Shown: one piece after another, positions 3,249 to 59,236 of the stretch
Numbering within the stretch: position 1 is the first letter of the stretch
Layout: each line of letters begins with the position of its first letter
IMG/VR virus record: IMGVR_UViG_3300020172_001601
Location: 190,198-254,197 of that record
Direction: 5' to 3' (one strand)
Length of the DNA: 64,000 nucleotides
Origin: a virus
Translations under genes and position numbers: made by a program
The notes under the pieces: generated by a model
Seen by the model: the letters and a program-made list of their open reading frames with translations, nothing else
The model's database searches: none
What the model was told of the DNA's origin: nothing

Positions 3249-3668
3249 TTATTGTTTAATTGTATTGTATTCTTTGTCTAACAGGATGGCATATTTTAAC
3301 CAATCCGGTGGGAGCAAAACATAACCTTGTGGAGATATTGAACCAGGAGTTTCGTCTTCCGGCAGAATGCCAGATTCTTTTGCTATTGAGCCGATCATAA
3401 GACGTGCCTTTTGATCTCGCACCAGATACTCACTGCTGCCAGGAATTGGCGCTACAAACTTGGCTCCATATCCAATGAGCTTGTTCCAGTCGAACCCACC
3501 TTTTGGATAGAACTCAAACCGCATGTCGATCATGCCAACTTGTTGTCCAGGTACGCAAGGTAGCTCAAGTCCAGCAGCAATAAGCGCCGGACATGGTATG
3601 GTCATGTCACCACTTACAGAGAAGTGGGGCATCTCGTCTAATCGTAGCCAATTCTTAAACTTCATCAT
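3249..3668 (-). CDS. Capsid-targeting-peptide protein (MMKFKNWLRLDE)
   Basis: 139 aa on the minus strand. The N-terminus MMKFKNWLRLDE matches the FKxWL pattern shared by five proteins in the window and resembles the T4 internal-protein capsid-targeting peptide (MKTYQEFIAEA). The rest, with a Pro-rich C-terminus (LLPPDWLKY), matches no family I recognise. A CTAAATA box ends 5 nt before the first ATG and no Shine-Dalgarno is present, so the mRNA is probably leaderless. I infer a protein packaged in the head, possibly cleaved after the acidic residues near position 12. A second in-frame ATG at 3665 is equally usable. Confidence 0.65.
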   Translation of the reverse strand: MMKFKNWLRLDEMPHFSVSGDMTIPCPALIAAGLELPCVPGQQVGMIDMRFEFYPKGGFDWNKLIGYGAKFVAPIPGSSEYLVRDQKARLMIGSIAKESGILPEDETPGSISPQGYVLLPPDWLKYAILLDKEYNTIKQ

Positions 3669-3673
3669 GCGGT

Positions 3674-3680
3674 TATTTAG
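3674..3680 (-). promoter_or_regulatory. Late-type leaderless promoter CTAAATA
   Basis: On the minus strand CTAAATA is followed by ACCGC and then ATG (3668). The 5-nt gap puts the expected transcription start at the initiation codon. It is divergent from the CTAAATA at 3700-3706. Confidence 0.6.
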
Positions 3681-3699
3681 GGTTTTTGAATTGAAATGT

Positions 3700-3706
3700 C
3701 TAAATA
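3700..3706 (+). promoter_or_regulatory. Late-type promoter box CTAAATA, divergent
   Basis: CTAAATA on the + strand, 33 nt before the ATG at 3740, with AGGAGAAAGG as ribosome-binding site between. Together with the minus-strand box it forms a divergent late promoter pair about 20 nt apart. Confidence 0.5.
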
Positions 3707-3739
3707 ATAGTCCAACCCTAAACAGGAGAAAGGTGGTTA

Positions 3740-3919
3740 ATGCAAAAAGGTTCAGTTAATAGTCCCATCCGTATAGATTTATCCGAAAAAGCACCGGATG
3801 AGATAGCTGAATATCTGCAAGCCCTCCTTGCTATCCGCTATGCCCTGCACAAAAAGGGCCTCAAATTGAAAATTGACCGCCGCCCACGGCCCGCCAAGGT
3901 CAAAATTACTCCCGCTTGA
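3740..3919 (+). CDS. Small basic protein, 59 aa
   Basis: ATG to TGA encodes 59 aa. It is supported by AGGAGAAAGG upstream and a late-type CTAAATA box. The N-terminal half is acidic and helical (DEIAEYLQALLAIRYAL); the C-terminal half is strongly basic with Pro and Arg (LKIDRRPRPAKVK), suggesting nucleic-acid contact. No family is recognised. A class 2 element begins 16 nt after its stop. Confidence 0.55.
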   Translation: MQKGSVNSPIRIDLSEKAPDEIAEYLQALLAIRYALHKKGLKLKIDRRPRPAKVKITPA

Positions 3920-3935
3920 GTTTTTCAAAATCGCA

Positions 3936-3964
3936 TTGAACCAAAGCGATTTTCGCTCTCTAGG
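3936..3964 (+). promoter_or_regulatory. TTGAAC-N14-CTCTCTAGG element (class 2)
   Basis: TTGAAC at 3936-3941 and CTCTCTAGG at 3956-3964, gap 14, one base shorter than the other copies. It lies 40 nt before the ATG at 4005. AGCGA-TTT-TCGCT inside can form a short hairpin. Confidence 0.6.
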
Positions 3965-4004
3965 TTTGTGAACACTCTTTTCACAACTCACCGAGAGGTC
4001 CATC

Positions 4005-4328
4005 ATGTCTACTGATCGTTCCGTTCCAGACGGCGGTATTAAGGTTGGTCAAGGTGCCACTTATGGCATCGGCAGCGACCGCTACCCGTATACCGTCATT
4101 GAAGTCTCAAGCCCAACTCGTGTTGTGGTTCAGGCCGACAATTATCGGCGAACCGACAATAATGGGTTCTCCGAGTCTCAGACCTACGAATACACCCCTA
4201 ACCCGGATGCTTGCCAAACCATCGTGACTCGTCGTAAAGACGGTCGCTGGCGAAAGAAGGGCGATACCAAGGGTGGCGGCGTATTTTCGTTCCACGGTCG
4301 AAATGCCTACCAAGACCCCAGCTTCTAG
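4005..4328 (+). CDS. Hypothetical protein, 107 aa
   Basis: The start is set by GAGAGG 9 nt upstream. A Gly/Tyr-rich N-terminal part (VGQGATYGIGSDRYPYTVIEV) followed by alternating strands (TRVVVQADNYRR) suggests a small beta domain, possibly SH3-like. The C-terminus is basic (RRKDGRWRKKGDTKGGG). No signal peptide or membrane segment is seen and no family is recognised. It is the first gene of the 4-8.8 kb block in which each transcription unit has its own class 2 element. Confidence 0.6.
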   Translation: MSTDRSVPDGGIKVGQGATYGIGSDRYPYTVIEVSSPTRVVVQADNYRRTDNNGFSESQTYEYTPNPDACQTIVTRRKDGRWRKKGDTKGGGVFSFHGRNAYQDPSF

Positions 4329-4342
4329 TCAATTTGGAAAAT

Positions 4343-4391
4343 ACCAGAGAGGCGACGTGAACTAAACTCACGTTCGCCTCTCTTGGTTTTT
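4343..4391 (+). terminator. Strong hairpin with U-run that also contains a class 2 element
   Basis: A near-perfect stem of about 17 bp (left arm from 4344, right arm ending at 4386) with a 7-nt loop is followed by TTTTT, so it can end transcription of 4005-4328. The loop side holds TGAAC (4358-4362), and CTCTCTTGG (4378-4386) follows after 15 nt, so the class 2 motif is embedded in the stem. Its downstream gene starts at 4425. Confidence 0.6.
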
Positions 4392-4424
4392 GTGGACAGC
4401 ACAATACTCCAAAAAGGCAATACC

Positions 4425-5051
4425 ATGTCGAATGTAACGAAACAATTCGTTCTTGCGGGTCGTTCGATCTTCACTATTGAAATCCCCGAAGGCTACCGAG
4501 CCGAACATAATCTCAAGCCACACTACACTTTCCGAGTGGACCATAAGGCCCCGGAAGGCAAGTGGAAGGAAACGTGGTTCGTCAAGTACCTTACCGGGTC
4601 TGACAATACTCGTGACTACTCCTATCTCGGCCTATTGAATGTCGAGAACGGACAGGTTCGGACTACTGCCAAGAGCAAGTTGAACGACAACAATCTTGTT
4701 GTGAAATTGCTCAATCGCACCTTGGCTCTTATTTGGGCCGGTGATGTAAACCCCATGACCGAAAAGGGGTTCGGGCTTCACCATGAGGGTCGATGTGGCA
4801 AGTGTGGTCGGGTATTGACCACGCCAGAAAGCGTTCAGCGAGGCATTGGTCCAGAATGCTGGATCAATATGAATGGTGGGCATTATCCTCATTTAGCTGT
4901 CAAAGGCGAATTTGAGGATCAGGCCCGCCAGGAAATGGAAGCCGAAGATCGTGAAGAACAACGGGCTGAAGACGGTGAATATGAGGCCGATATTGCCGAG
5001 CGTGAGGCCGTTCGGAATGCTTACTTGCATCTTTCTAACGGAACCGTGTGA
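4425..5051 (+). CDS. DUF6011-like zinc-binding protein
   Basis: 208 aa from ATG 4425 (AAAAGG upstream); the earlier in-frame start at 4383 falls inside the terminator/class 2 element. The diagnostic segment is GRCGKCGRVLTTPESVQRG followed by IGPECW, matching the DUF6011 zinc motif (CxxCxRxL...S...G.GP.C) common in phage and plasmid proteins. The N-terminal domain (about residues 1-110) is strand-rich. The C-terminal 50 residues are very acidic (EMEAEDREEQRAEDGEYEAD). The role is unknown; the zinc module usually suggests nucleic-acid binding. Its TGA overlaps the next ATG. Confidence 0.65.
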   Translation: MSNVTKQFVLAGRSIFTIEIPEGYRAEHNLKPHYTFRVDHKAPEGKWKETWFVKYLTGSDNTRDYSYLGLLNVENGQVRTTAKSKLNDNNLVVKLLNRTLALIWAGDVNPMTEKGFGLHHEGRCGKCGRVLTTPESVQRGIGPECWINMNGGHYPHLAVKGEFEDQARQEMEAEDREEQRAEDGEYEADIAEREAVRNAYLHLSNGTV

Positions 5052-5620
5052 TGGACGAAGACGAATTCATCTTTGGATATGACAACGACAATCCTTATTA
5101 TGCCATTCATGATTATGCTCGAAGGAATGGCTACGGCAAGTATAAGCGTCCGGTCATTCGCAGTGAAGACGCTGTTCTTGAAACCTACACGAATTGGAAT
5201 TCGCCACAGGCCGATAAAGAGCGAACCATCTTCGGCGACAAGGAAGCCGATCTGTTCTACAACTATTCAGATCGCCTAGCTCAATGGGACTACGACAAGG
5301 ATCGCCGGGCCAATGAATATGCAGCGTTAGTGGCACAGCCAAAAACCGCTAAGTATTTCACTGCCATGTTGTCGTATTTTCACGACGGGGCTGAAGTATC
5401 TCTCCGGCATATTGTTGCTGGCTGCAATCGCTCAAATGGTTTTCCGTATTTGGTTTACGGATACAAGTATACGACAAAGCCAGAAGATGCTGGTCGCCTT
5501 GCTGAATACGACAAGATTCGGCTGGGCAGGACCGCAGCACTGGAACAGGCAAAAACAGAATTCACTGCCAAGTTCGATGAAGCGATGGCAGACGTTTTGA
5601 AAAATACCAATTCGGCTTGA
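5051..5620 (+). CDS. Hypothetical protein, 189 aa
   Basis: It starts in a TGATG overlap with the DUF6011 gene, implying translational coupling. It is rich in Tyr, Asp and Arg, with an acidic N-terminus (MDEDEFIFGYDNDNPYY) and a helical C-terminus (AALEQAKTEFTAKFDEAMADV). A Cys/His pair in RHIVAGCNRSNGFPY is not enough for a metal site. No family is recognised. Its TGA overlaps the left half of the next class 2 element. Confidence 0.55.
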   Translation: MDEDEFIFGYDNDNPYYAIHDYARRNGYGKYKRPVIRSEDAVLETYTNWNSPQADKERTIFGDKEADLFYNYSDRLAQWDYDKDRRANEYAALVAQPKTAKYFTAMLSYFHDGAEVSLRHIVAGCNRSNGFPYLVYGYKYTTKPEDAGRLAEYDKIRLGRTAALEQAKTEFTAKFDEAMADVLKNTNSA

Positions 5621-5646
5621 ACCAATAGCGTATTTGGTTCTCTAGG
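5617..5646 (+). promoter_or_regulatory. TTGAAC-N15-TTCTCTAGG element (class 2)
   Basis: TTGAAC at 5617-5622 overlaps the previous stop codon; TTCTCTAGG lies at 5638-5646 after 15 nt. It is 44 nt upstream of the ParB-like start at 5691. GAACCAA and TTGGTTC inside could pair. Confidence 0.6.
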
Positions 5647-5690
5647 TGTCTGTAACGAACTTAACCCCTTCAGTTTCTCGGAGAATGGTC

Positions 5691-6818
5691 ATGTCGCAGC
5701 GAGTTGTCAATTACACGGCTGGTGAAAAGGTTGAAGAATTGGTGGCTCTTGGCGATATTACCGTCAGCCACAATCCTCGTGCTTCTCTTCGTGGTGTTCT
5801 CGATCTCTTCCACAGCGACGGTAGTGCGAGCCAGTCGCCGGAAACTCGGCAGGCATTCGTCTCGTATATGAAGGAAGAACACCCGGAAATTGACGGCCTT
5901 CGTCATTCCATCGAAGAACACGGTCTGCTTCAGCCGCCAGTGGTTCGTGCCTTCCGTGCCAAGCAGGATGGTGAATATGTCCAACGCTATGGCATCGTAT
6001 TGGGCGAAGGGCGTATTCTTTCTTACGCTCTGACCGAAGCGATTACCGGCGTGGCTCAAAAGGTTCGTGTCCGTATTGAATCTCGTCTCGGCGTCGATGC
6101 CGCTTTCGAGCAGGGTTTGGCCGAAAACCTTGACCGCAACGACATGAACCCCGTCGATCTGGCGACGGCATTCCACGAGATGTTGACAATCCGCATCAAT
6201 CCGGCTACAAAGTCCCCCGAAGTAAATGGGGAACCCAACCCGCTGTATTCTTCTGACAGCCCGAAGGGTCGCCCATATACGCTCAAGGAACTGGCCGAAC
6301 GTGTCAATAAGACATATTGGTGGGTTCGGGATCACGAAGCGATTTCGTACCTCCCGGATAACCTGAAGTCACAGTGTATCAAGTCGTGGCAGTCGGGCAA
6401 GCGCAATGTCACCCGGTTCTGCAAGTTGGGATTGAAGTACAAGGCTCAGGTCACGGGACAGCCGGAAGAAACCGGGCTTGACAGCCAGACTGGAACAAAC
6501 GATACTGTTGTCGCAAATGACGGAACCACGACGCAACTTGTCGGAACTTCGTCGGAAACAACCCAGGTTACGCAGCTTACCGCTGCCGTGGAAACTTCGA
6601 TTTCCCTCGAACCTGCACAACGTCGTCGTGTCCTTAGTCTGAAGTCGGTGGTGGGACTGTTCGACGGAACGGCATTGGAAAACAAGGAGCGGCTGGCAAC
6701 GCTGGCTGAAGTGATGGGAATCACGCTTGAAGAAGCACTGACCGAACGAGATTTACGTCTCGCTAATCAGGCCGATACCCAGGCTCGCAAGCAGCAGCGA
6801 CAACTGGCAACTGCTTGA
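5691..6818 (+). CDS. ParB/RepB/Spo0J-family DNA-binding protein
   Basis: 375 aa from ATG 5691, preceded by CGGAGAA; the longer in-frame GTG at 5646 lies at the end of the class 2 element. A ParB N-terminal domain is visible: HSIEEHGLLQPPVV, then GEGRILSYAL near residue 104 and AENLDRNDMNPVDLA near 143. A KorB-like helix-turn-helix (TLKELAERVNKTYWWVRDH) is near residue 196. A Thr/Gln-rich linker and a helical C-terminus follow. Chromosomal and plasmid members load on centromere sites and act with ParA. No ParA is visible here, so a phage role in genome maintenance or transcription control is possible. It lies immediately upstream of the sigma factor. Confidence 0.8.
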   Translation: MSQRVVNYTAGEKVEELVALGDITVSHNPRASLRGVLDLFHSDGSASQSPETRQAFVSYMKEEHPEIDGLRHSIEEHGLLQPPVVRAFRAKQDGEYVQRYGIVLGEGRILSYALTEAITGVAQKVRVRIESRLGVDAAFEQGLAENLDRNDMNPVDLATAFHEMLTIRINPATKSPEVNGEPNPLYSSDSPKGRPYTLKELAERVNKTYWWVRDHEAISYLPDNLKSQCIKSWQSGKRNVTRFCKLGLKYKAQVTGQPEETGLDSQTGTNDTVVANDGTTTQLVGTSSETTQVTQLTAAVETSISLEPAQRRRVLSLKSVVGLFDGTALENKERLATLAEVMGITLEEALTERDLRLANQADTQARKQQRQLATA

Positions 6819-6822
6819 AATA

Positions 6823-6868
6823 AACCAAGAGAGCGCTGAACCAAACGGCATCGGCGCTCTCTTGGTTC
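6823..6868 (+). promoter_or_regulatory. 14-bp perfect hairpin containing a class 2 element, upstream of the sigma gene
   Basis: The arms 6823-6836 and 6855-6868 are perfect complements (AACCAAGAGAGCGC and its reverse complement) with an 18-nt loop. TGAACC starts at 6837 and CTCTCTTGG occupies 6857-6865, so the element has the usual 15-nt gap. There is no U-run, so it is more likely regulatory than a terminator. If class 2 is read by the phage sigma factor, this is an autoregulatory site. Confidence 0.6.
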
Positions 6869-6922
6869 ATAGGATGACCGAACTTAATCAGGATGAATCC
6901 CCAACCGTCAAAGGAGAAGATC

Positions 6923-7948
6923 GTGGACTTTCAAGAAATTCCTTACGTCAAGTTGTCAGGTGGCCAGAAGAAGAAAGCCCTCGAAATTCTTGGTCGTGGA
7001 AACGTCCTCTTGAAGAAGTGGGCTGCGTTCTTCCCACCGAAGAAGTATCGCCTGTTTCGCAACGCAGTGATGGAAGGCAGCACGAACCCTCAGCACGATG
7101 GCAAGGCGGCGATCCCGTCCAATATGCTGAAAGAGTTCCACTCGGACTTACCGTTCATGACGGCGATCCGTCACAACAAATACGATGATCTCGACGGTCG
7201 TTCTGTCGAACAGGCGATCCTCGAAGGGTTCAGCGCTCTCGCCAAACGGCACGCCCGCAAGTGGTCACTCGAAGGTGATCCGGTCGGATTGACCAAGCAA
7301 GACTTCCTACAGGAAGCCTACATGCAGGTCATCGAAGCGATGTACTCGTGGATGCCCGAACACAATGTCGATATTTCGACGTTCATTTGGGTGTCGTTGA
7401 AGAACCGGATGAGCAATGTCGTCAACCAACAGGGCAATATGCTCTGTCCGTTGACCAACTCCGACTTGGAGTTGATGAGCCGATTCGAGCAGACGAAGCG
7501 TGGTATGCCACAGTATGTCACGTTCGATCAGATCATCAACCAACTTGGGTTGTCGGCTGAAGAAGGGAAGCATCTGAATACGCTGTTGACTCGTGTATTC
7601 GCCGAGAATCAGTTGGGTGGTCAACAGGGCGATCAGCACGACGATATGAGCGCCACGGGCAACGATTACACCGGGCATCGTGTTGGTGTGGATCGTGAGT
7701 CGGAAACCGAAACCGTTCTGCAAGAGCAGCACGTCTTCGATACTCTGAGCCGGGCTGGACTGTCGGTACTGGAACGACAAGTGATTGAAGCGGCGATGGA
7801 ACCATTCCACGGATGGCAGACTGAATTCGCCAAGACACACATCAATCCGGCTACCAACAAGCCATACTCACGAATGAGAATCACACAGGTTCTCGAAATG
7901 GCACGAGAAAAGGTCGCAAAGACCTTAGAGCGACAAGAAGCGGCCTAA
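6923..7948 (+). CDS. Phage-encoded RNA polymerase sigma factor
   Basis: 341 aa from GTG 6923, chosen because AAAGGAG lies 6 nt upstream; the ATG at 6893 has no usable ribosome-binding site. Sigma region 2 is clear: DFLQEAYMQVIEAMYSW (about residue 126) and STFIWVSLKNRMSNVV (about 151), matching the DLIQEG...FSTYA pattern that binds core polymerase and the -10 element. A 100-residue, Gln/Asp-rich linker follows. Region 4 starts at LSVLERQVIEAA (about 279) and holds a helix-turn-helix expected to read the -35. It probably redirects host RNA polymerase to one of the phage promoter classes. A strong terminator follows. Confidence 0.8.
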   Translation: MDFQEIPYVKLSGGQKKKALEILGRGNVLLKKWAAFFPPKKYRLFRNAVMEGSTNPQHDGKAAIPSNMLKEFHSDLPFMTAIRHNKYDDLDGRSVEQAILEGFSALAKRHARKWSLEGDPVGLTKQDFLQEAYMQVIEAMYSWMPEHNVDISTFIWVSLKNRMSNVVNQQGNMLCPLTNSDLELMSRFEQTKRGMPQYVTFDQIINQLGLSAEEGKHLNTLLTRVFAENQLGGQQGDQHDDMSATGNDYTGHRVGVDRESETETVLQEQHVFDTLSRAGLSVLERQVIEAAMEPFHGWQTEFAKTHINPATNKPYSRMRITQVLEMAREKVAKTLERQEAA

Positions 7949-8747: not shown

Positions 8748-8748
8748 C

Positions 8749-8755
8749 CTATATA
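8749..8755 (+). promoter_or_regulatory. Late-type leaderless promoter CTATATA
   Basis: CTATATA, then 5 nt, then the ATG at 8761 of a capsid-targeted gene; no Shine-Dalgarno can fit in the gap. The geometry is the same as at 3668, 15982 and 39837. Confidence 0.6.
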
Positions 8756-8760: not shown

Positions 8761-9399
8761 ATGATGACCTTCAAGGAATTTTTAATGGCCGACACCGTAA
8801 ACCTTCGGGAAGTTGCCCTGTTTGACTCGCCGTCTTTGTTCAAGGAAATGGCCGTTCTGAACCAGAACGCTATTGCCAAGACTCAGACGGCGATGCAATT
8901 CATTCATAACAACAATATCCCCGGTGTCATTATCGGCGGTATTGCCGTCGCCAACTATACCCATGACCGGGCGCTGACCCCGGACGTGGATTTTTTGACG
9001 CCCAATATCGCTGGTTTGAAGACCCTGCTACAACAGCAGAATATTCCTTTCCAGCCATTAGCTTCCAGTGGTGAGTTTGGTGGTATCTATGTTCCGTCGC
9101 TCGATGCCGACTTCTTGGACGTGTCCGAGGGCAATGTCGGATTGAACCGTTATATCATGCAGACCGCTACGACTGCCAAAATTGGTGGCGTGTCTTTCCC
9201 GATTATTGACGCAGCAGTATTGACCATCATGAAGTTCATTATCGGTCGTGACAAAGATCAGACTGATGCCTTCAAACTGCTGCCTACTGTGCCGAAGGCG
9301 ACTCTCAAGACTCACCTGAAGGCGTTGGGTCGATACTTGCCGGAAGACATGAATGCACAAACGATCTGGAGCTATGCCAAGGCAATGTCTCCAGGTTAA
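8761..9399 (+). CDS. Capsid-targeted nucleotidyltransferase-fold protein
   Basis: 212 aa. The N-terminus MMTFKEFLMAD is the closest of the five to T4 capsid-targeting peptides. The body carries a nucleotidyltransferase signature: VIIGGIAVANYTHDRALTP followed by DVDFLT (about residues 56-80), with GG, then Arg-x-Thr-like spacing and paired Asp, and a third acidic position in DADFLD (about 117). It resembles MNT/AbiEii-type enzymes, which transfer nucleotides to proteins or tRNA. If packaged in the head it could be injected with the DNA and act on the host at once. The late-type box has no leader; a second ATG is at 8764. Confidence 0.65.
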   Translation: MMTFKEFLMADTVNLREVALFDSPSLFKEMAVLNQNAIAKTQTAMQFIHNNNIPGVIIGGIAVANYTHDRALTPDVDFLTPNIAGLKTLLQQQNIPFQPLASSGEFGGIYVPSLDADFLDVSEGNVGLNRYIMQTATTAKIGGVSFPIIDAAVLTIMKFIIGRDKDQTDAFKLLPTVPKATLKTHLKALGRYLPEDMNAQTIWSYAKAMSPG

Positions 9400-15508: not shown

Positions 15509-15952
15509 ATGGCAGCTACAGACAAAAAGACGCTTGAACTGATTGCTCAGGTCAAGGCAAAGAAGGCGGCAATCGCCAAGGCCGAGAAGCCTGCATACAA
15601 GACCAACCTATCTTTTTCCTACATTGAAGGGAACAAGAGCAGCGCAACCAATCTGAACATCGAAACCGATGTAAGGAAGTTGATCTGTATTGCAGCTTTT
15701 CTCACCGAACGCAGTGCCACCTACTCGATGGTCGCCACCAAGGTATTGGGCGTTGACAAGCCGCCTGAGTTTACCTGGGATGGCTACACGGTGGACGATT
15801 GGATCGGCGATCTGAAGTTGAAGATTACGAAAATCCAAATCGTCGCCGAAAAGAAGAAGCTGGAAGCGTTGGAAGAACGCCTCAACAAGATTATCAGCCC
15901 TGAAAAACGTGCTGAACTCGAACTTGAGGCCATTGCCAACGAGTTGGGATAA
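15509..15952 (+). CDS. Hypothetical protein partner of 14316-15503, 147 aa
   Basis: It has a basic, helical N-terminus (LIAQVKAKKAAIAKAEK), a central alpha/beta part and a C-terminal coiled-coil-like helix rich in Lys and Glu (AEKKKLEALEERLNKII). It is linked by 5 nt to the upstream gene. No family is recognised; the composition suits a chaperone or adaptor. Confidence 0.55.
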   Translation: MAATDKKTLELIAQVKAKKAAIAKAEKPAYKTNLSFSYIEGNKSSATNLNIETDVRKLICIAAFLTERSATYSMVATKVLGVDKPPEFTWDGYTVDDWIGDLKLKITKIQIVAEKKKLEALEERLNKIISPEKRAELELEAIANELG

Positions 15953-15969
15953 TTTTCCCAATTCTCACG

Positions 15970-15976
15970 CTAAATA
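15970..15976 (+). promoter_or_regulatory. Late-type leaderless promoter CTAAATA
   Basis: CTAAATA, 5 nt (AAAGC), ATG at 15982. The surrounding bases (GCTAAATAAAAGCATG) are almost identical to those at 57770-57784. Confidence 0.65.
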
Positions 15977-15981: not shown

Positions 15982-17334
15982 ATGAGATTTAGTTTCCGCA
16001 AATGGCTAGAAGCCGAAGATAACCCACAAATCCAGTGGCGTAATGATGTTCCCACCTACCATCGAGGTTTGGTTCGGGCAAATCAATTACGCCCTGGATT
16101 TGTGCATGTATATGATCCTGACCACTATAACTTGGGTGGCCGAAAGGTATTTCATGATGAACACGGCGAAGTCGGATATTCTCTATTGCCGCAAGAAGGC
16201 CCTTTACAAACACCAGAGAATCCAGGTAAGATAGAAATAGCTGGGGTGTACAACCACGGTGGGGATCGAACAAAAGGCTGGGGAGTTCATGCCATCAAGC
16301 ACGCCGTCCAACAAGGCGGCAATTACTTAGAAGCCTTTGAGGGCAATGAACGATTTTCTCTGCCTTTGTATTATCATGCCCACTTAGGAGTTGAGCCAAT
16401 TGGCTATTTGCCTTGGGATAATCAATATGCCCCAGCGGGTTGGAATGCCGAAAGAGACAATGAGCCAGGGATTGTCCAGATGCAAATCCCGCCAGAAGGA
16501 TTGGCTGATTTAGACACTTGGCTAAGTACAAGGCATGATGACGATCAAGCTCTGTTTATGGCCAAACTAAAACGATTGAAGCAACAAGCAGGTGTTCAAA
16601 TGGACGAAAACAAAAAGCGTGGTGGTCATGATGCTAAAAAGCATAGGGACCATTGTGCATCTCCAGAGGAATACAAGCGATTGGTCGATGGAGTTGACGA
16701 ATTCTATTTCGGTTCTGGCGATGACACACCTATGCCTGATCCAGACGACAAGATTGGCCGCTTCATTCATATGAAGGCCCATGAATGGAACGTCGGCATC
16801 ACCGAGGCTGCTGAACGCTCTATGGCTCGTCTTTATGGGCAAATTGCCAAGAACGACAAGACCGTGATTATTCTCACTGCATTCCGGCACGAGAATGACC
16901 TGAAGACCAATCGTCAACTGAATGTATCCTTGGGTGCCGACCTTCGTAAGTTGGGCTGGGGATATACACCAGTCATGGGTGGTTTTGTCGAGAAGGGCGA
17001 AGGCGGCAAAGACGTTCACGTTCAAGAAGAATCTATGTTCGTCAATGCAACTGGCGATCCAGGACAGGTTGTATCCACGATTCATAAGCTGTTACAGAAA
17101 TATCAGCAGCAGGCCGCATTGGTTAAGCTGCCTGATGATCCTGTAGCTGTATTGCTTTGGGATGATGGGCATACCACTCCAGCCGGTCAATGGCACGCTG
17201 ACCCTCAGCAAATGGCCCAATACTACACTCAGATGAGAAGTGGCCCTCCGGGTCGTCAATTCAAGTTCGAGGCCGCAGGCGACGATTCAGTGATGACTCG
17301 CATGGCAGTCGAGAACTACTTCAAATCGCTCTAA
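15982..17334 (+). CDS. Capsid-targeted two-domain protein with DUF3293-like C-terminal part
   Basis: 450 aa. It begins MRFSFRKWLEAED, the capsid-targeting-like peptide. The N-terminal domain (about residues 20-180) carries NYLEAFEGNERFSLPLYYHA and then a PWDNQYAPAGWN block. I associate this pattern with phage toxin- or transferase-like domains but cannot assign it. From about residue 295 the segment VIILTAFRHENDLKTNRQLN, then LGWGYTPVMGGFVE and EES, matches DUF3293. I infer an injected effector packaged in the head. Transcription would be late and leaderless. Confidence 0.65.
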   Translation: MRFSFRKWLEAEDNPQIQWRNDVPTYHRGLVRANQLRPGFVHVYDPDHYNLGGRKVFHDEHGEVGYSLLPQEGPLQTPENPGKIEIAGVYNHGGDRTKGWGVHAIKHAVQQGGNYLEAFEGNERFSLPLYYHAHLGVEPIGYLPWDNQYAPAGWNAERDNEPGIVQMQIPPEGLADLDTWLSTRHDDDQALFMAKLKRLKQQAGVQMDENKKRGGHDAKKHRDHCASPEEYKRLVDGVDEFYFGSGDDTPMPDPDDKIGRFIHMKAHEWNVGITEAAERSMARLYGQIAKNDKTVIILTAFRHENDLKTNRQLNVSLGADLRKLGWGYTPVMGGFVEKGEGGKDVHVQEESMFVNATGDPGQVVSTIHKLLQKYQQQAALVKLPDDPVAVLLWDDGHTTPAGQWHADPQQMAQYYTQMRSGPPGRQFKFEAAGDDSVMTRMAVENYFKSL

Positions 17335-21145: not shown

Positions 21146-21183
21146 CAGTTGACAGAATGAGCAACTCAACCGGAGCCAGTGAT

Positions 21184-23361
21184 ATGTTCACCAACAAATT
21201 TGCGGGAACTTGTAATAATCCTACTTGCAAGTGCAAAGTCGAAGCCCAAGCTGGCTTCACTCAGAAAATCAACGGTCGATGGGCCGTATGGTGCAAGCAA
21301 TGCGTTCCAGGTCGTATTGAGGCTGCGCCTGCTGTCCGTCGTATTCTTACGACTGATGGAAAGATCATTACGCCGTATGAGCCTCAGAATCTTGATCTTA
21401 TTCGGTCAATTCCAGGCGCACGCTGGGAAAAAGACAATCAGTGGTGGAGCGTCAGCCTCGAAATGGCCGACCGTCACCGTCTTTTGGAAGTGGCCGAGAA
21501 AATTGGCCTCGAAGTTCCTCCGTCTCTTCGTATCATTGAAGTGACCGAGGAAGCACAGAACGCCACCAATGCCGGTCTGTATCCCTTCCAAGTGGAAGGC
21601 GTCAACTTCCTTGCCCACAAGGACAAGGCGTTGCTAGGCGACGAAATGGGCCTTGGTAAGAGTGTTCAGTCACTCATGGGCATTCCTGCTCGTGGTGCTG
21701 CCCTTGTTATTTGCCGTGCCGGTCTGAAGTACAACTGGCTCGATGAAGTCAGCAAGTGGCGTCCCGACTTGAAGCCTGTTGTTCTGAACGGTCGCAAGAG
21801 CTTCCGTTGGCCTGCTGCTGGCGAAGTCGTTATCATCAATAACGATATTCTGCCTGAAGAATTCAATACGCCCAAGAAGAACAAGGGCGAAGCAATGCAA
21901 GCCTATTGGGATCGTCTCAAGACGTATCGCAATGGCCTGAAGGAACGTCACCCACAAGCTGCCAGCGTCAACCTTATCGTTGACGAAGCACACGATTACA
22001 AGAATCGTGATGCTGCACGCAGCCGCAAGGTGAAGGAATTCTCCAAGCTGGCTCGCAAGCTGACTGGTTTGACTGGTTCGCCGTTGACCAATCGTCCTGA
22101 AGACCTGTTCGGTGTATTGGATGTATTGGGATTAGCAAAAGAAGTGTTCGGAACGTGGGAACGGTTCCAGCTATTGTTCAATGCCTACTCGGAGCGGGTG
22201 TGGACTGGCAAGGGCTACATTAACAAGATTGTATGGGGTAAGCCTCAGCCTATTGTTCCTGAATTGCTTCGTCGTTCGATGCTTCGTCGTCGCCGTGCCG
22301 ATGTATTGCCGGACCTTCCTGCTAAGACCTACACTAACCTGTTGGTCGGGCCGGTTGACCCTGCACTCCAGAAAGCACTGGATGAAATGTGGGAAGAATG
22401 GGGAACCGCTGTTCAAATTGAAGGCGAACTTCCTCCGTTCGAGAAGTTCAGTGAAATTCGTGAAAAGCTGGCCCGCAGTCGGGTCGATGCTATGATCGAA
22501 TACGTTGAAAACGCTGAAGAACAAGACGTTCCTTTGGTGGTGTTCAGCGCTCACTTGGCTCCGCTTGATGCCCTATTGGGTCGTCCGGGGTGGGCAGTGA
22601 TTACTGGTGTGACTTCTCCATTAAAACGTCAAGAAATTGTTCGGGCCTTTCAAGCCGGGCAATTGAAGGGCGTCGGAGTTAGCATCAAGGCTGGTGGTGT
22701 TGGGATTAACCTAACTCACGCTTGGAAGGCGTTGTTTGTTGACCTTGATTGGACTCCTGCTGCCAACTGGCAAGCAGAAGACCGTATTGCTCGTATTGGG
22801 CAATTGTCCAATAAAGTGGAAATCATTCGCATGGTGAGCGATCACCCACTCGATCTGCATATTCAGAACATGCTGGTCGATAAGATCGACACGATCATCA
22901 AGGCGATTGATTCGTCGGTCCACGGTGAGAAGGTTGAAGTCAAACCCGGCGTACAGGGCGAGACTGAAGAAGAGTTTCAAGCCCGTATTAACAAACTATT
23001 GGAGCGTGCTGAGGCCGACATTAAAGAACGCAAGGCACGAGCCGAGAGTGATCGTAAGATCGCAGCCAAGGGCAAGGTGGGCGTCATCCATAGCCGTGAG
23101 AAGGCACGACTAACGAAGAAGGTATTGCCCCTGACTGCCGAAAGAACCGAAGCTGTTCGTGATTCTTTCAAGTATATGCTGTCCGTTTGTGACGGGGCGC
23201 ATACTTGGGATAACGTCGGCTTCAATAAACCTGACGCATCGGTGGCACACTGGTTGTTGTCGGCTGGTCTGGAAACAGATCAGGAAGTTGAAGCAGCATA
23301 CTATATGCTGACTCGATACCACCGACAGCTTGCTCCCAAGTACCCGGTGCTTTTCAAGTAA
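21184..23361 (+). CDS. SNF2-family DNA translocase, SMARCAL1/HARP-like
   Basis: 725 aa from ATG 21184 (CCGGAG 8 nt upstream); the in-frame ATG at 21157 has no good site. An N-terminal zinc motif (CNNPTCKC ... VWCKQC) precedes a HARP-like domain (IPGARWEKDNQWWSV). Helicase motifs follow: I GDEMGLGKS (about 151-159), II DEAH (about 266-269), III-like GLTGSPLTNR, V GGVGINLT (about 502) and VI AEDRIARIGQ (about 531). The C-terminal 120 residues are charged and helical. SMARCAL1-like enzymes anneal or remodel forked DNA. In a phage this may aid replication restart or recombination. A class 2 element lies upstream and a hairpin terminator downstream. Confidence 0.85.
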   Translation: MFTNKFAGTCNNPTCKCKVEAQAGFTQKINGRWAVWCKQCVPGRIEAAPAVRRILTTDGKIITPYEPQNLDLIRSIPGARWEKDNQWWSVSLEMADRHRLLEVAEKIGLEVPPSLRIIEVTEEAQNATNAGLYPFQVEGVNFLAHKDKALLGDEMGLGKSVQSLMGIPARGAALVICRAGLKYNWLDEVSKWRPDLKPVVLNGRKSFRWPAAGEVVIINNDILPEEFNTPKKNKGEAMQAYWDRLKTYRNGLKERHPQAASVNLIVDEAHDYKNRDAARSRKVKEFSKLARKLTGLTGSPLTNRPEDLFGVLDVLGLAKEVFGTWERFQLLFNAYSERVWTGKGYINKIVWGKPQPIVPELLRRSMLRRRRADVLPDLPAKTYTNLLVGPVDPALQKALDEMWEEWGTAVQIEGELPPFEKFSEIREKLARSRVDAMIEYVENAEEQDVPLVVFSAHLAPLDALLGRPGWAVITGVTSPLKRQEIVRAFQAGQLKGVGVSIKAGGVGINLTHAWKALFVDLDWTPAANWQAEDRIARIGQLSNKVEIIRMVSDHPLDLHIQNMLVDKIDTIIKAIDSSVHGEKVEVKPGVQGETEEEFQARINKLLERAEADIKERKARAESDRKIAAKGKVGVIHSREKARLTKKVLPLTAERTEAVRDSFKYMLSVCDGAHTWDNVGFNKPDASVAHWLLSAGLETDQEVEAAYYMLTRYHRQLAPKYPVLFK

Positions 23362-26007: not shown

Positions 26008-26453
26008 GGAACTACCAAGTCCGAGATTTGGTAAATACTACTGACGAGTTCGGCGCACGAACTTTCGCCTTGGTTTCCATCACCGAAACCGGCTATCGTG
26101 CTGTTGCCATGAAGGACAAAAAACGGTATAACCTAACCGACGAGCAGATCGCTTGTAAAGTTGGAACTATATCAGAAGACAGTCCTTTACTCATCGAAGA
26201 CGAATATGATGCTCAACGAGGCAAAGAATATTGTCTTCAACAGGCTCGTGAGTTTCCAGCCGAGGCCGTTAAATGGCGTGCCTTGGCGAACCTCAAACCC
26301 GGCAGCACGGTCTGTCTTGTTCACCGGCGCACGATCTTTCGAGACGCCGTGTTCCTCGCAGTAAATTTCAAAAAGCCTCTTTATCCGATTCGGGCCAAGA
26401 TCAAAGGTCTGGCCCATGACTTCCGGCTTGACGCCATGCTCCCTGAAGATTGA
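25989..26453 (+). CDS. Hypothetical protein, 154 aa
   Basis: Either ATG 25989 (GAGG 4 nt upstream) or ATG 25998 could start it; it overlaps the membrane gene by 19 nt. Beta-rich N-terminal domain (NYQVRDLVNTTDEFG) and a C-terminal segment with FRDAVFLAVNFKKPLYPI. No family is recognised. A class 1 promoter overlaps its stop. Confidence 0.5.
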   Translation: MVAMSIRNYQVRDLVNTTDEFGARTFALVSITETGYRAVAMKDKKRYNLTDEQIACKVGTISEDSPLLIEDEYDAQRGKEYCLQQAREFPAEAVKWRALANLKPGSTVCLVHRRTIFRDAVFLAVNFKKPLYPIRAKIKGLAHDFRLDAMLPED

Positions 26454-39796: not shown

Positions 39797-39825
39797 GGCC
39801 AGTGATGAAAGTCGCTGGCCTTTTC
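39797..39825 (+). terminator. Terminator after the CAP gene
   Basis: 9-bp stem (one G-U), loop TGAAAG, then TTTTCT; the late-type CTATATA starts at its last base. Confidence 0.75.
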
Positions 39826-39831
39826 TATATA
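39825..39831 (+). promoter_or_regulatory. Late-type leaderless promoter CTATATA
   Basis: CTATATA, 5 nt (CATTC), ATG 39837 of a capsid-targeted gene. It is identical to the heptamer at 8749-8755. Confidence 0.6.
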
Positions 39832-39836: not shown

Positions 39837-40277
39837 ATGCCAATCTTGAAATTCAAACAATGGATATGCGAATCAGCCGACTTCCCGGAGCCTGAAGACC
39901 TCAGTGCGTTCCTGTCTCATGCGGCTACGGTTTGTATTCGCACCCACCAAGAAATGTTCAAGATGGCCCAAACTCAAAAACAAAAGGATTTGGTGGGCGA
40001 AATAAGCAGCCTTGGTGAATTACTTCAACATATCCATCAGAGTTTGGAAGACAAAATTCCAAATGAGCCATTCGATACTGACAAGTTTCAAGGCAGACCG
40101 TCTCCGACATTGAATAAGCCGCAATATCCCATCAAATATCCTACGTTACAGTCGATCATTCCCATTCTGAGAACTATCGGCGGCAACCCAGCCATCGACA
40201 AGCCAACTTCGCAGGCTCTTTCCGACAAAATCCAGTCGTTGATGCGTGCTTGGAAATCTGCTTTACAGCAAAGCTGA
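39837..40277 (+). CDS. Capsid-targeted protein, 146 aa
   Basis: Begins MPILKFKQWICESADF, matching the FKxW(I/L)xxE/S pattern. The rest is helical (DLSAFLSHAATVCIRTHQEM, LVGEISSLGELLQHIHQSL) with a Pro-rich centre (FQGRPSPTLNKPQYP). No catalytic residues stand out. I infer a small internal head protein. The class 1 promoter of the next gene begins inside its last codons. Confidence 0.6.
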   Translation: MPILKFKQWICESADFPEPEDLSAFLSHAATVCIRTHQEMFKMAQTQKQKDLVGEISSLGELLQHIHQSLEDKIPNEPFDTDKFQGRPSPTLNKPQYPIKYPTLQSIIPILRTIGGNPAIDKPTSQALSDKIQSLMRAWKSALQQS

Positions 40278-55260: not shown

Positions 55261-55268
55261 CACTCACT

Positions 55269-55709
55269 ATGAGCAATAATCAGGTCGTATGCCAGAACCG
55301 CAAAGCCCGTTTCGAGTACGAAGTTCTCGAAACGCTTGAAGCCGGTATTGTCCTTAAAGGGACTGAAATCAAATCGGTGAGACAACACCACGTCTCGCTC
55401 GATGGTGCATTTGCCGTCGTTGCCAATGGCGAAGTCACGTTGGTAAATTGCAATATCGAACCATACAAACAGGGCAACGTCCACAACCACGAACCCAAGC
55501 GACAACGACGACTGCTCCTGAACAAGTCCGAGATCGCCAAGTTCGCTGAGAAGGCCAAAGTCAAAGGGTTCACCCTCGTTCCCCTGTCCATGTACATCAA
55601 GAATGGCAAGGCCAAGGTCGAACTGGCTGTATGCCGTGGCAAGCAAATTCACGACAAGCGACAGTCCATCAAGGACCGTGATCTTTCAAGGGAACTGAGG
55701 CAGCAATGA
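55269..55709 (+). CDS. smpB: SsrA-binding protein SmpB
   Basis: 146 aa, full length for the family. Signature blocks in order: NRKARFEYEVLETLEAGIVL, KGTEIKSVR, RRLLLNKSEI, GFTLVPLSMYIKNGKAKVEL, then the tail RGKQIHDKRQSIKDRDLSRE. SmpB binds tmRNA and brings it to stalled ribosomes; the C-terminal tail reads the empty mRNA channel and is intact here. No tmRNA gene is visible in the window, so it may use host tmRNA or one elsewhere in the genome. It has its own strong class 1 promoter and a nearly leaderless start, implying early expression. Confidence 0.95.
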   Translation: MSNNQVVCQNRKARFEYEVLETLEAGIVLKGTEIKSVRQHHVSLDGAFAVVANGEVTLVNCNIEPYKQGNVHNHEPKRQRRLLLNKSEIAKFAEKAKVKGFTLVPLSMYIKNGKAKVELAVCRGKQIHDKRQSIKDRDLSRELRQQ

Positions 55710-55975
55710 GTGAAGTAAAGTGTGTAAAAATTCGTGATATGGCGATTCTCGTTGACCGAGACATAGAGCCAGTAGGCAACAAATTGATTATCACTGGTTC
55801 TTACTTTTGCTTTACGATAGACAATGTAAAAGCAAATGAAATTATTCGTTTGGGAAAATACCTTCAACAAGAAGGATTGAAACTCGCCGACGAGGGTGAT
55901 TTGCCCGACGAACTTGAAGATGATGATGAGGAAGATTTGCCCGACGAACTTGAAGATGATGAGGAAGACGAATGA
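55706..55975 (+). CDS. Hypothetical protein with acidic repeats, 89 aa
   Basis: ATGA overlap with smpB. A small alpha/beta part, then a duplicated DLPDELEDDDEE block (two tandem copies) closing the protein. The duplication probably arose by slippage. Very acidic tails can mimic nucleic acid; function unknown. Confidence 0.5.
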   Translation: MSEVKCVKIRDMAILVDRDIEPVGNKLIITGSYFCFTIDNVKANEIIRLGKYLQQEGLKLADEGDLPDELEDDDEEDLPDELEDDEEDE

Positions 55976-56217
55976 CATTCAAATTTGAAGTTGGACAAGA
56001 ATACCAAACTCAAGCTGGTGAAACCGTCAAGGTTCTCGGAAGAACGGACAACCCTGGATATGAATGCTTGATTTGTAGTGACAATAAGCATCGCTACGAT
56101 AGGTCAACGCATTCTGATGACGCTGGACGAGTCACCGGAACCGATCACGATTATTCATGTCCAGATAACTTCGTGAGACAAGCAAATGAACAAGCGGGAA
56201 GCGTTCAAGCAAGCTAA
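55972..56217 (+). CDS. Hypothetical protein, 81 aa
   Basis: ATGA overlap. KFEVGQEYQTQAGETVKVLG resembles a short KOW/SH3-like strand set; later Cys and Tyr (YECLICSDNKHRYDRST). No family is recognised. Confidence 0.5.
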   Translation: MTFKFEVGQEYQTQAGETVKVLGRTDNPGYECLICSDNKHRYDRSTHSDDAGRVTGTDHDYSCPDNFVRQANEQAGSVQAS

Positions 56218-56401
56218 GGCCATCTATCCTGGCCTGAAGCCCACAAGAGCGAGTGGTTTCACCCTGACCCAAGATGGTCAGGGTGTTATCGTTGCGGGAT
56301 ACGATGAAGATGTAGTGATGGTCTTGCACAACGAGACTGACATATACAGACTCATGAATATGTGCCAGTTGGCTATTGAACGCAGAAAGAAAAAGAAATG
56401 A
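56186..56401 (+). CDS. Hypothetical protein, 71 aa
   Basis: Overlaps the previous gene by 32 nt. Basic helix at each end (KREAFKQAKAIYPGLK; LAIERRKKKK) around a sheet. No family is recognised. Confidence 0.45.
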   Translation: MNKREAFKQAKAIYPGLKPTRASGFTLTQDGQGVIVAGYDEDVVMVLHNETDIYRLMNMCQLAIERRKKKK

Positions 56402-57120
56402 CATTCATATTCTCGCCAGCAACACAAGCCGACTTGGTGATCGCTGAGTTGCCCTTTGAAGACACACTGTCGCAAATCACCAACGAAGACAATTATGTTG
56501 ACATTGATATTGCCGGGAAAGCATATCCTGTCAATATGGGTGCGTCACGGCTACGCATCATCAAGAAAAGCCCTGTTTGCGCCTGCTGTGGCATCCGAGC
56601 AACTGAATGCTCCCTCGATCTTGATGCCCAATCCACCAAAGAAGCTGGCGAACTCCGCTATCACGTCAATTTCTATGCTGCCACCGGGGTCAAGGATCAT
56701 GACCACCAACATATGATCCTGTTCACCAGGGACCATATTGTTCCGAAGTTCAAAGGCGGCGATGAATCTGAAGAGAATTCACAAACTCTCTGCTTCAATT
56801 GCAATTGCCTCAAAGACTCCACCGAAATGGACTTGGAACACATGAGGAAGGCCCTCTTCCCGGCCTACCGTGCCTACCAATCGTCCAAAGCCCTGAATCT
56901 CGCCAAAGATCGTCTGCACATGCACTACGTTCGTTTGGAAAAGGCCAATAGAGCCGTCGAGAACATCACACAGGCCCTCACTATTGTCACCGACCACCGG
57001 GCCGAAGGCTTAAAAGACAAGCGGGACAAGAGTGCAGAAACAGCGACGAAGTTGCTCTCTTATATTGAACAAGTTGAACGTCAATCCCAACTCAATGGTG
57101 TTGTTCCAAAGGTAGAATGA
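56398..57120 (+). CDS. HNH endonuclease-like protein (paralogue of the left-edge gene)
   Basis: 240 aa. CACCG (about residue 60) and a later CFNCNCLK zinc pair flank LFTRDHIVPKFKGGDESEEN, the HNH beta-beta-alpha-metal motif with DH and N. The preceding region (ELPFEDTLSQITNEDNYVDI) aligns in order with that of the gene at the left edge. The C-terminal part is helical. Probably DNA-nicking; it could be a homing enzyme or a domesticated one. ATGA overlaps on both sides argue against a recent insertion. Confidence 0.75.
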   Translation: MTFIFSPATQADLVIAELPFEDTLSQITNEDNYVDIDIAGKAYPVNMGASRLRIIKKSPVCACCGIRATECSLDLDAQSTKEAGELRYHVNFYAATGVKDHDHQHMILFTRDHIVPKFKGGDESEENSQTLCFNCNCLKDSTEMDLEHMRKALFPAYRAYQSSKALNLAKDRLHMHYVRLEKANRAVENITQALTIVTDHRAEGLKDKRDKSAETATKLLSYIEQVERQSQLNGVVPKVE

Positions 57121-57470
57121 AAATGAATACAATTGACAGAACAAAAAAATTATTGTTAGTTCTTTGGAACGGCAATTATGACCATGCCTTTATTTGCAGT
57201 GACAAAGTTGGATATTATGACAAGGGCGACCGTCATGAAAAAGAAATTGCAAAACATCTAAGCAAACCCGGCACTCAAGTTGTATTTCTGTCAGACAATA
57301 CAGAGCATGATGACACCGAAATCATCTTTGATGAGTATTTGCCCAATATCATTGAAGGGAAAAATTCCCCAGATGATTATGGTTTTGAAGTCACATCGGT
57401 CTTCAATACACTTGGCGAATGGGCTGGAGAAGACGAAGACGAAGACGAAGACGAGGAACTTGACGAATGA
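57117..57470 (+). CDS. Hypothetical protein with acidic tail, 117 aa
   Basis: KLLLVLWNGNYDHAFICSDK starts an alpha/beta domain; the C-terminus is a run of Glu-Asp (GEDEDEDEDEELDE). A -10-like GGTAGAAT at its start lacks a -35. ATG 57117 or 57123. No family is recognised. Confidence 0.5.
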   Translation: MKMNTIDRTKKLLLVLWNGNYDHAFICSDKVGYYDKGDRHEKEIAKHLSKPGTQVVFLSDNTEHDDTEIIFDEYLPNIIEGKNSPDDYGFEVTSVFNTLGEWAGEDEDEDEDEELDE

Positions 57471-57778
57471 TCGTATTAGAAGGTGGACAATATCGCAAGT
57501 TTAAGAGCAAAAAGCCTAAACTATGCGATTGCACGGTCGGTGTTGACCCTAATAGCCACCAACCACACCTGCTGAGATGTAAGAATGTGGCTCAGTATCT
57601 TTGGTTCTCTAGGCACTGGTTCCTGGAAATCACCAAAGAATCTACTGAGCCTATTTTCTTTAACATTCCAGCAATAGTCTGCGAATCTTGCCTCGAACGG
57701 CTCAAATTGACCAAACCGCCCAGCGACCTAGACAAATACCGGGAACTGCATAAAAAGAACAAAAGTGCGGCTAAATAA
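57467..57778 (+). CDS. Hypothetical Cys-containing protein, 103 aa
   Basis: KLCDCTVG, LLRCKNVAQYLW and IVCESCLERL provide five Cys that may bind one zinc. A late-type box overlaps its 3' end. No family is recognised. Confidence 0.5.
   Translation: MIVLEGGQYRKFKSKKPKLCDCTVGVDPNSHQPHLLRCKNVAQYLWFSRHWFLEITKESTEPIFFNIPAIVCESCLERLKLTKPPSDLDKYRELHKKNKSAAK
57771..57777 (+). promoter_or_regulatory. Late-type leaderless promoter CTAAATA
   Basis: CTAAATA across the previous stop, 4 nt, ATG 57782. The flanking bases match those at 15970. Confidence 0.65.
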
Positions 57779-57781
57779 AGC

Positions 57782-59236
57782 ATGTTGAAGTTCAAGACAT
57801 GGCTAGAAGCCGAACAACCAGTAACAAACCCTGCCGCCCCAATCCAGAAAGGCGTCGGATACTACCTGCGCCTTGCCGGACTACCCCAAGGTGTCGCCAA
57901 ACACCCTGATGCCTATAAACTCATTGAGCAGGCATACAAGCAACTCCAAGCCCAAGGCAATCCAGAAGCCCATGAAGCCTATATCCGACTGCACGGCTAT
58001 CTCGATAGACAACAGGGCGGCAAACACTTCAATAACTTCTTTACGGACGTAACACAAGGCAAAGAAGCATACGTTCCACACTCTGAGTTCCAGCCAGTCC
58101 TTGATATGTCACAACAACAAGACTGGATGAAAACAAGAGAACAATACCACGGCAACTTCGACAAGCATATCAAAACCAGCATCCCTACGTTCGGAGAACT
58201 ACAGGATAAGAAAGGCCATGCAATATCGACTGCCTTCAAAGACCAAGAACTCGATATGCTCGATATTGGTGGCTCTGAAGGATCATTCGCCCGCACCATC
58301 AGCCATATGACTAATGGTCAAATAAAGACTGAAGTGCTGGACCCTAACGATGCCATGCACGACTTCTACCACAGCAAGGGACAAACCCCAGGCAGCACAT
58401 ATAACAAAGCCGCTTTCATGAAGGGCTGGATCAATGACGATGGCTCGAAAACGCCCGAACTCAATAGCGAGACAACAGATAAACGATATGATATTATCCA
58501 CGAGTCTATGGCATTCCAGTTCATGAGCAACCAACGTGATGCCCAAGTCGCCGAGGCCAAGGCATTACTCAAGCCAACTGGCATGTTCCTCACCGAACAA
58601 AAGCTAAAGAACGATAATTGGGACGCCAATGAGAAGTTCAAAGACGAAAACCACAAGAACCTCTATTACAGCAATGAGGCACTGAAACAAAAAGAAAAGG
58701 TTGTCGCCTTCGCTGCGGAAAAGAAGCCACAGTTTGCTCAAAATCAAGACGAAGAAGAAGCAGTCGGCATGGTGAATAACATGGTTCACCACAATGAATA
58801 CGAACAAACCCTTGCCAAACACTTCCAAATCGTGTATCAGTATTGGGATAGCGGGAACTTCAAAGGCTACGCAGCCAGCGATCAACCCGATATGGTCACA
58901 AAGTTCCTGCACGCATTGGGCAACGTCAGTAGTAAATTCTCAAACGTCCCGCTCCCAAGAAGAATAACGGTCGGAGAATCCATCATGCCATCCTTCAAAG
59001 AATGGTCGAAACAACACAGCATCGAAGACGTGACCAACGGCATCCTCCCGCACCGGGACAAGCTGGAGAAAATGACCGGCCATGAGATCAAGAAGCTGTA
59101 CGGGGATAAACTCGTACACGCCGCTCGTAAACTCGATATGGACCTCAGCGACGACGATATTGATGAAATCATCGACAAGGCATGTGGAATCGAAGAAATC
59201 GAGCCGCACCACAGCCACTACCATCTGCACACTTAA
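57782..59236 (+). CDS. Capsid-targeted SAM-methyltransferase-like protein
   Basis: 484 aa. MLKFKTWLEAEQ is a capsid-targeting-like peptide. A helical region follows (to about residue 150), then a class I methyltransferase motif I (DMLDIGGSEGSFARTI, about 158-172), a motif II-like acidic strand (TEVLDPNDAMHDF) and motif IV/V-like YDIIHESMAFQF. The C-terminal 83 residues begin with a second peptide of the same type (MPSFKEWSKQ, residue 402) behind a good internal Shine-Dalgarno. A head-packaged methyltransferase would act on host or phage targets right after injection. The leaderless late-type promoter fits a virion protein. Confidence 0.65.
   Translation: MLKFKTWLEAEQPVTNPAAPIQKGVGYYLRLAGLPQGVAKHPDAYKLIEQAYKQLQAQGNPEAHEAYIRLHGYLDRQQGGKHFNNFFTDVTQGKEAYVPHSEFQPVLDMSQQQDWMKTREQYHGNFDKHIKTSIPTFGELQDKKGHAISTAFKDQELDMLDIGGSEGSFARTISHMTNGQIKTEVLDPNDAMHDFYHSKGQTPGSTYNKAAFMKGWINDDGSKTPELNSETTDKRYDIIHESMAFQFMSNQRDAQVAEAKALLKPTGMFLTEQKLKNDNWDANEKFKDENHKNLYYSNEALKQKEKVVAFAAEKKPQFAQNQDEEEAVGMVNNMVHHNEYEQTLAKHFQIVYQYWDSGNFKGYAASDQPDMVTKFLHALGNVSSKFSNVPLPRRITVGESIMPSFKEWSKQHSIEDVTNGILPHRDKLEKMTGHEIKKLYGDKLVHAARKLDMDLSDDDIDEIIDKACGIEEIEPHHSHYHLHT
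58985..59236 (+). CDS. Possible internal in-frame product of the methyltransferase gene
   Basis: ATG 58985 is in frame with 57782-59236 and has GGAG about 9 nt upstream. Translation from it gives an 83-aa helical protein starting MPSFKEWSKQ, itself resembling the capsid-targeting peptide. A separate short product is plausible but unproven; alternatively the sequence is an ancient gene fusion. Confidence 0.3.
   Translation: MPSFKEWSKQHSIEDVTNGILPHRDKLEKMTGHEIKKLYGDKLVHAARKLDMDLSDDDIDEIIDKACGIEEIEPHHSHYHLHT

Follow-up and report, generated by a model that had tools for sequence, protein, structure and literature searches.

A CTAWATA late-type promoter placed directly before the start codon marks genes with predicted capsid-targeting N-termini across a T4-related clade of huge phages

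Introduction

Late promoters of phage T4 (gp55/gp33/gp45) carry the consensus TATAAATA at -13 to -6 and those of phage Aeh1 the heptamer CTAAATA from -12 (PMC1524935), and according to a review of T4 no conservation is found upstream of the late box (PMC2988020). Here we describe a related element, the heptamer CTAWATA, which stands 4-5 nt before the ATG of five genes in a stretch of 64,000 nucleotides (the window) comprising bases 190198-254197 of the 340,341-base linear IMG/VR contig IMGVR_UViG_3300020172_001601. The element resembles the T4 late promoters in its TATA-type box at -10, in the lack of a sigma70-like -35 element and in a gp55-class sigma factor, which is encoded by relatives of this virus. 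It differs from them in the first base of the box, C (or A) here and T in T4, in an AT tract near -28 seen only here, and in the spacer between box and start codon, which is 4-5 nt here and at least 12 nt in T4. Aeh1 shares the identical heptamer at the same position relative to +1, but all 27 promoter-like copies in that phage have a spacer of at least 18 nt, the AT tract is absent, and the leaderless form is not enriched.

Two further systems are relevant for the genes behind these boxes. The internal proteins IPI-III and Alt of T4 carry an N-terminal capsid-targeting tag (MKTYQEFIAE), in which residues 4 and 7 were identified as targeting determinants by mutagenesis (PMC9026906), and the N-termini described here share with it the aromatic residues at positions 4 and 7, Ile or Leu at position 8, a putative Glu cleavage site and a gp21-type protease, the last encoded by relatives. 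While ipII and ipIII of T4 have leaders with a Shine-Dalgarno sequence, the boxed and tagged genes found here are for the most part predicted to be leaderless, and they are numerous, scattered and fused to unrelated cargo. Leaderless mRNAs of other phages and of mycobacteria have their start codon at or near the 5' end, prefer ATG and lack a Shine-Dalgarno sequence, as is predicted here, but unlike them the present arrangement goes with a single type of late promoter and, for the most part, with a single functional class of genes. We found no earlier account of this promoter architecture in the literature searched, in which subscription journals were thinly covered.

Results

All five boxes and start codons that the original prediction had placed in the window are present exactly as described (Table 1). 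The window holds 11 copies of CTAWATA, five of them with an ATG at 4 or 5 nt where 0.39 would be expected (Poisson P 6e-5). A genome-wide search for CTAWATA-N4/5-ATG with comparison of the encoded N-termini, as had been suggested with the prediction, was performed on the entire contig, read piecewise. Of its 39 copies of CTAWATA, five had an ATG after 4 nt and eight after 5 nt (0.69 expected per spacer), giving 13 sites compared to 1.39 expected (P 3e-9), and the reversed control pattern occurred once or not at all. Outside the window, boxed and tag-bearing genes of the contig have their boxes at 26267, 120341, 263476(-) and 300404, and boxed genes without a tag include those at 55660(-), 298541(-) and 311806. 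The comparison was extended to G023 (533 kb), G021, G014, G009, part of LR756511, most of G019 and others, with genes called by a simple in-house caller. Pooled over eight sequences, which are related to one another, 26 boxes had the ATG at spacer 4 and 42 at spacer 5 (4.9 expected each). For an ATG at spacer 4-5, CTAAATA came out on top among its 105 anagrams (28%, with a median of 4%), as did CTATATA among its 140.

The boxed genes had also been predicted to encode capsid-targeting peptides, and this was supported: our own tag pattern matched 41 of 69 boxed open reading frames (ORFs) and only 130 of 3177 other called genes (4%; odds ratio 34, p 1e-36). A test restricted to the residues determined in T4 was added because our pattern had been drawn up after seeing the data, and aromatic residues at both positions 4 and 7 were found in 29/69 boxed compared to 74/2823 other genes (odds ratio 27, p 1e-25); with the aromatic spacing kept and the position left free, the numbers were 50/69 and 251/2823. 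A protease-site-like [LIVFMW]xE follows the aromatic residue in 32 of the 41 tagged proteins (vs 18%). Except for one pair, the 41 are non-homologous past residue 18, so that common ancestry of whole genes cannot account for the association, and the boxed tagged genes would represent nearly independent cases. Genes of G014 that are otherwise unrelated share up to 80% identity over the 30 nt preceding the start and up to 93% over the 30 nt following it, which suggests a common promoter-tag module.

The association is strong, yet the match between promoter and peptide is not one-to-one as originally claimed, with exceptions both ways. The CTAWATA box also serves ordinary leadered genes, and some genes with the peptide stand behind a leadered box (41777-) or sit downstream in operons. 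The motif in front of many genes lacking the peptide had been named as an observation that would speak against the prediction; such cases do occur, mainly as leadered copies, whereas among the leaderless copies they form a minority. Contig positions outside the window are given below with the prefix G000:C1. On the minus strand at G000:C1:258246-263465, several tag-bearing genes (MSNFKEWLGASE, MESFKEWLEMME, MTSNFKEWMSDDE) lie behind one leaderless box, apparently as one cargo operon. An untagged DNA-end-protector-like gene (phrog_429; G000:C1:311818-312339) has a leaderless box that is kept in four relatives down to about 44% identity; besides the contig itself, the gene was noted in G001, G012 and G021.

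With the A of the ATG as +1, CTAWATA occupies -12 to -6, the place of a TATA-like late box. By the published T4 and Aeh1 geometry, transcription from a box with a 5-nt spacer would begin at the A of the start codon. The base before the ATG was C or T in 67/69 cases (background 50%, p 4e-18) and in 13/13 cases of a hold-out (contig 3300014202_001521 and a near-copy, fetched afterwards). A pyrimidine at -1 followed by A at +1 is what RNA polymerase usually prefers where it starts on that A. The start codon was ATG in 64/64 genes tested, and the spacer of 4-5 nt is, as the original prediction had pointed out, too short to hold a Shine-Dalgarno sequence. Promoter geometry, the pyrimidine at -1 and the ATG-only starts thus all favor late-type promoters with a leaderless start, and the 5' ends would lie exactly at the ATG. 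A different spacing was conserved upstream of a gene for an acidic protein of about 180 residues (G000:C1:308511-309059), where CTATATA has a spacer of 7-8 nt (2-3 nt leader) in five related sequences, i.e., the window's contig, G001, G014, G009 and G012.

When promoters were aligned on the box, a second, AT-rich element that the earlier analysis had missed was revealed 18-14 nt ahead of it, at about -30 to -26 (about -28) from the predicted start, making the promoter bipartite. The A+T fraction at this tract was 0.80 for leaderless boxes and 0.77 for leadered intergenic boxes, compared to 0.57 for boxes inside genes and 0.58 in the flanks. Leaderless and leadered boxes thus look like the same promoter, while the intragenic copies mostly do not. 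No TTGACA-like -35 was found at any offset upstream of the boxes, and the same analysis of T4 and Aeh1 gave no AT tract and spacers that began at 12 nt for T4 and at 18 nt for Aeh1. Terminator hairpins directly upstream of the boxes, which appeared common by eye, were rejected as a feature since they were not enriched (14% vs 19%). Leadered copies of the box precede a tape-measure-like gene of about 3,090 residues in two genomes, which supports late use of the promoter.

The box-ATG-tag architecture is a property of the clade, recurring in divergent relatives including G023, where the ATG follows exactly 5 nt after 16 of 52 boxes, and LR756511. In G014, eight boxed genes stand in a row within 8 kb, and their N-termini (MISFRIFLEN, MISFKKFIEN, MITFKQFLEG, MKTFKQFLES and similar) are close to the T4 tag. 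Tagged genes of G021 also use the box variants CATAGATA and CATAAATA. Relatives such as G019 appeared to lack the pattern, but this was rejected as their tagged genes carry the variant box ATATATA at equal spacing. No excess over the reversed control was observed in T4, P-SSM2, S-PM2, Syn9, KVP40, RaK2, phiKZ, phage G, Atu_ph07, phage 65, CC2 or Aeh1. A search of the tail region of 80 relatives gave no signal because the cargo genes sit elsewhere, and viral contigs scanned for M-x-x-F-K-x-W-L-E-A yielded mostly unrelated proteins.

The source virus is a T4-related huge phage. Its contig encodes a gp6-like baseplate wedge protein, as in T4-related myophages, with 308 relatives among viral contigs, including one at 46% identity in LR756511, a published 595-kb uncultured huge phage of the type described by Al-Shayeb et al. 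(2020) that has the same architecture of box, ATG and tag. A full-length Gp23-type capsid protein is encoded by seven relatives, an S77 (gp21-type) prohead protease was found in 8/8 relatives tested, and a gp55-type late sigma factor is encoded by three (G023, G021 and LR756511). Gp23 is also found in pieces: small separate ORFs encode fragments of different parts of the protein at G000:C1:124962-125219 (outside the window), in G023 (58177-58380, 351378-351485, 453543-453695 and 517826-517984) and in G021 (198635-198961), the latter two also carrying the full-length capsid gene. Besides the protease gene of the head cluster, a second S77 prohead-protease-like ORF is present in LR756511 (W06; 242621-242989) and in G023 (238352-238600). 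The window further encodes a SNF2-type helicase (21157-23361), whose nearest named relatives are in the Thermus phages phiLo and MN1 and the Rhodothermus phage RM378.

Two of the five cargo genes in the window encode recognised domains. The product of 15982..17334 ends in an S-adenosylmethionine lyase family domain (PF23780 E 6.8e-12; phrog_2226 E 2.5e-11) and that of 57782..59236 contains a methyltransferase domain (phrog_4752 E 4e-13); 8761..9399 gave a weak nucleotidyltransferase-like match below the family cut-off. Other recognised cargo domains are an ADP-ribosyltransferase in G009 and a C39 peptidase in G023, and most tagged proteins have no recognised function. In a search of 2.9 million viral contigs that reaches close relatives only, four of the five genes had no relative, so orthologs could be compared for 8761..9399 only. 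Its ortholog L345 (71% identity) has kept the tag (MRKFKEY for MMTFKEF) and shows the variant box CATAGATA-N5-ATG at the corresponding place within unrelated flanks, indicating that the position of the box is conserved while its exact sequence drifts. Besides the five, no further convincing tag-like N-termini were found in the window.

Table 1. Promoter elements and associated genes in the window (window coordinates).
Feature	Position	Strand	Details
Late-type box CTAAATA, leadered	1474..1480	plus	28-nt leader with Shine-Dalgarno; gene start 1509
Putative leaderless cargo gene	3249..3668	minus	139 amino acids, MMKFKNWLRLDE...; N-terminus MMKFKNWL; no family match
Late-type box CTAAATA	3674..3680	minus	spacer ACCGC (5 nt); ATG 3668
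AT tract for box 3674..3680	expected ~3694-3698	minus	from promoter alignment
Late-type box CTAAATA, divergent, leadered	3700..3706	plus	33-nt leader with Shine-Dalgarno; gene start 3740
Late-type box CTATATA	8749..8755	plus	spacer CCAAC (5 nt); ATG 8761
Putative leaderless cargo gene	8761..9399	plus	212 amino acids, MMTFKEFLMADT...; N-terminus MMTFKEFL
AT tract, upstream promoter element	15952..15956	plus	14-18 nt ahead of box
Late-type box CTAAATA	15970..15976	plus	spacer AAAGC (5 nt); ATG 15982
Putative leaderless cargo gene	15982..17334	plus	450 amino acids, MRFSFRKWLEAED...; N-terminus MRFSFRKWLEAE
Late-type box CTATATA	39825..39831	plus	spacer CATTC (5 nt); ATG 39837
Putative leaderless cargo gene	39837..40277	plus	146 amino acids, MPILKFKQWICES...; N-terminus MPILKFKQW; no assigned function
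AT tract, upstream promoter element	57753..57757	plus	
Late-type box CTAAATA	57771..57777	plus	spacer AAGC (4 nt); ATG 57782
Putative leaderless cargo gene	57782..59236	plus	484 amino acids, MLKFKTWLEAEQ...; N-terminus MLKFKTWLEAE

Discussion

The architecture of box, ATG and tag, its enrichment, its positional constraint, the AT element, and the late sigma, protease and capsid genes of the relatives make it probable, as far as sequence can tell, that a late leaderless promoter preferentially drives the expression of tagged, head-packaged cargo in these phages. In this clade of huge phages related to T4, CTAWATA would serve as the -10-type element of gp55-class late promoters, and its position 4-5 nt before the ATG would set the start of RNA polymerase on the A of the start codon, giving a leaderless mRNA whose translation would require ribosomes to bind directly at the 5' AUG. 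This arrangement appears to be preferred for genes with a T4-type capsid-targeting N-terminus, in which aromatic residues at about positions 4 and 7 are followed by Leu and then by Glu at the expected protease site. The tagged proteins would be made late, drawn into the prohead and trimmed by the gp21-type protease, and the trimmed cargo would be injected along with the DNA in the next round of infection, like the internal proteins and Alt of T4. Otherwise unrelated cargo genes would carry promoter, start codon and tag as one unit of some 60 bp.

Several observations weigh against this interpretation. By our own pattern, which was defined partly after inspection of the data, 28 of the 69 boxed ORFs lack the peptide, and in the hold-out the association was weaker, 2/13 genes passing the strict test on residues 4 and 7 (p 0.04) and 5/13 the looser one (p 0.004). 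The contig of the window, an incomplete one that has Gp23 as a fragment only and no full capsid gene, gave no homolog of gp55 or gp21. Translation could instead proceed via very short leaders of 1-2 nt. Moreover, no box was found directly upstream of the capsid-protein gene, where we looked for one, and late timing therefore rests on the match of the box to those of Aeh1 and T4 together with the leadered copies before the tape-measure-like gene, which suggest that these promoters are used late.

If transcription from a late promoter started 1-3 nt before the ATG, the messages would be nearly leaderless as a result of compact genome design and no special mechanism would be needed. RNA polymerase is able to start at more than one base, spacers of 4 and 5 nt both occur, and the conserved acidic-protein set has 7-8 nt. 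Yet we regard this explanation as unlikely, given the pyrimidine at -1 with A at +1 in all but two cases and the exclusive use of ATG, and compactness leaves the concentration of the boxes in tag-bearing genes unexplained. That the N-terminal peptide is some other localisation or stability signal also seems rather unlikely: the aromatic residues match the T4 determinants, a protease-site-like Glu follows, relatives encode a gp21-type protease, and the ADP-ribosyltransferase and S-adenosylmethionine lyase cargo resemble known early-acting phage proteins, although the lack of recognised function in most tagged proteins would suit such a role. Alternatively, host sigma70 or some other factor may recognise the box as a -10 element, and expression would then not have to be late; the combination of an AT-rich, -10-like hexamer and an AT tract near -28 is indeed atypical of T4 late promoters. 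We find this improbable since a TTGACA-like -35 is absent, the box agrees exactly with the Aeh1 late box, relatives encode a gp55-type sigma, and leadered copies precede the tape-measure-like gene. Finally, boxed genes often lie close behind the upstream gene (median 18 nt), so that read-through is possible and the box might act in RNA, as a translation enhancer or processing site on transcripts from far upstream, but this is very improbable: for 25 of 66 boxed genes the upstream neighbour is divergently oriented, the identical box and AT tract occur at the same offset ahead of leadered genes, and both the pyrimidine bias at -1 and the match to the Aeh1 late promoter speak against it.

Returning to a late promoter for head-packaged cargo, the recognised cargo (S-adenosylmethionine lyase, methyltransferase, ADP-ribosyltransferase and C39 peptidase) looks like counter-defence or host take-over factors, which would act as the next infection begins. 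Alt of T4 is likewise a packaged ADP-ribosyltransferase. The unit of about 60 bases can apparently turn almost any gene into head-carried cargo. We tentatively extend this to the possible, though less than even, prospect that a portable module of some 60 bp, grafted onto unrelated genes, makes the product of each one independent, leaderless, expressed late and packaged into the head. Late in infection the phage would thereby run a leaderless channel of translation reserved for injected cargo, which may be favored by a phage-altered host ribosome.

For huge phages, the combination of box-N4/5-ATG and tag offers a sequence rule for injected cargo that can be read from genomes. Most such proteins lack any other annotation, and few of their relatives can be detected. 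The rule joins late promoters of the gp55 type, leaderless translation and capsid targeting, three subjects that have been studied separately. It also predicts a bipartite late promoter unlike that of T4 and suggests a route by which these phages may recruit new cargo genes.

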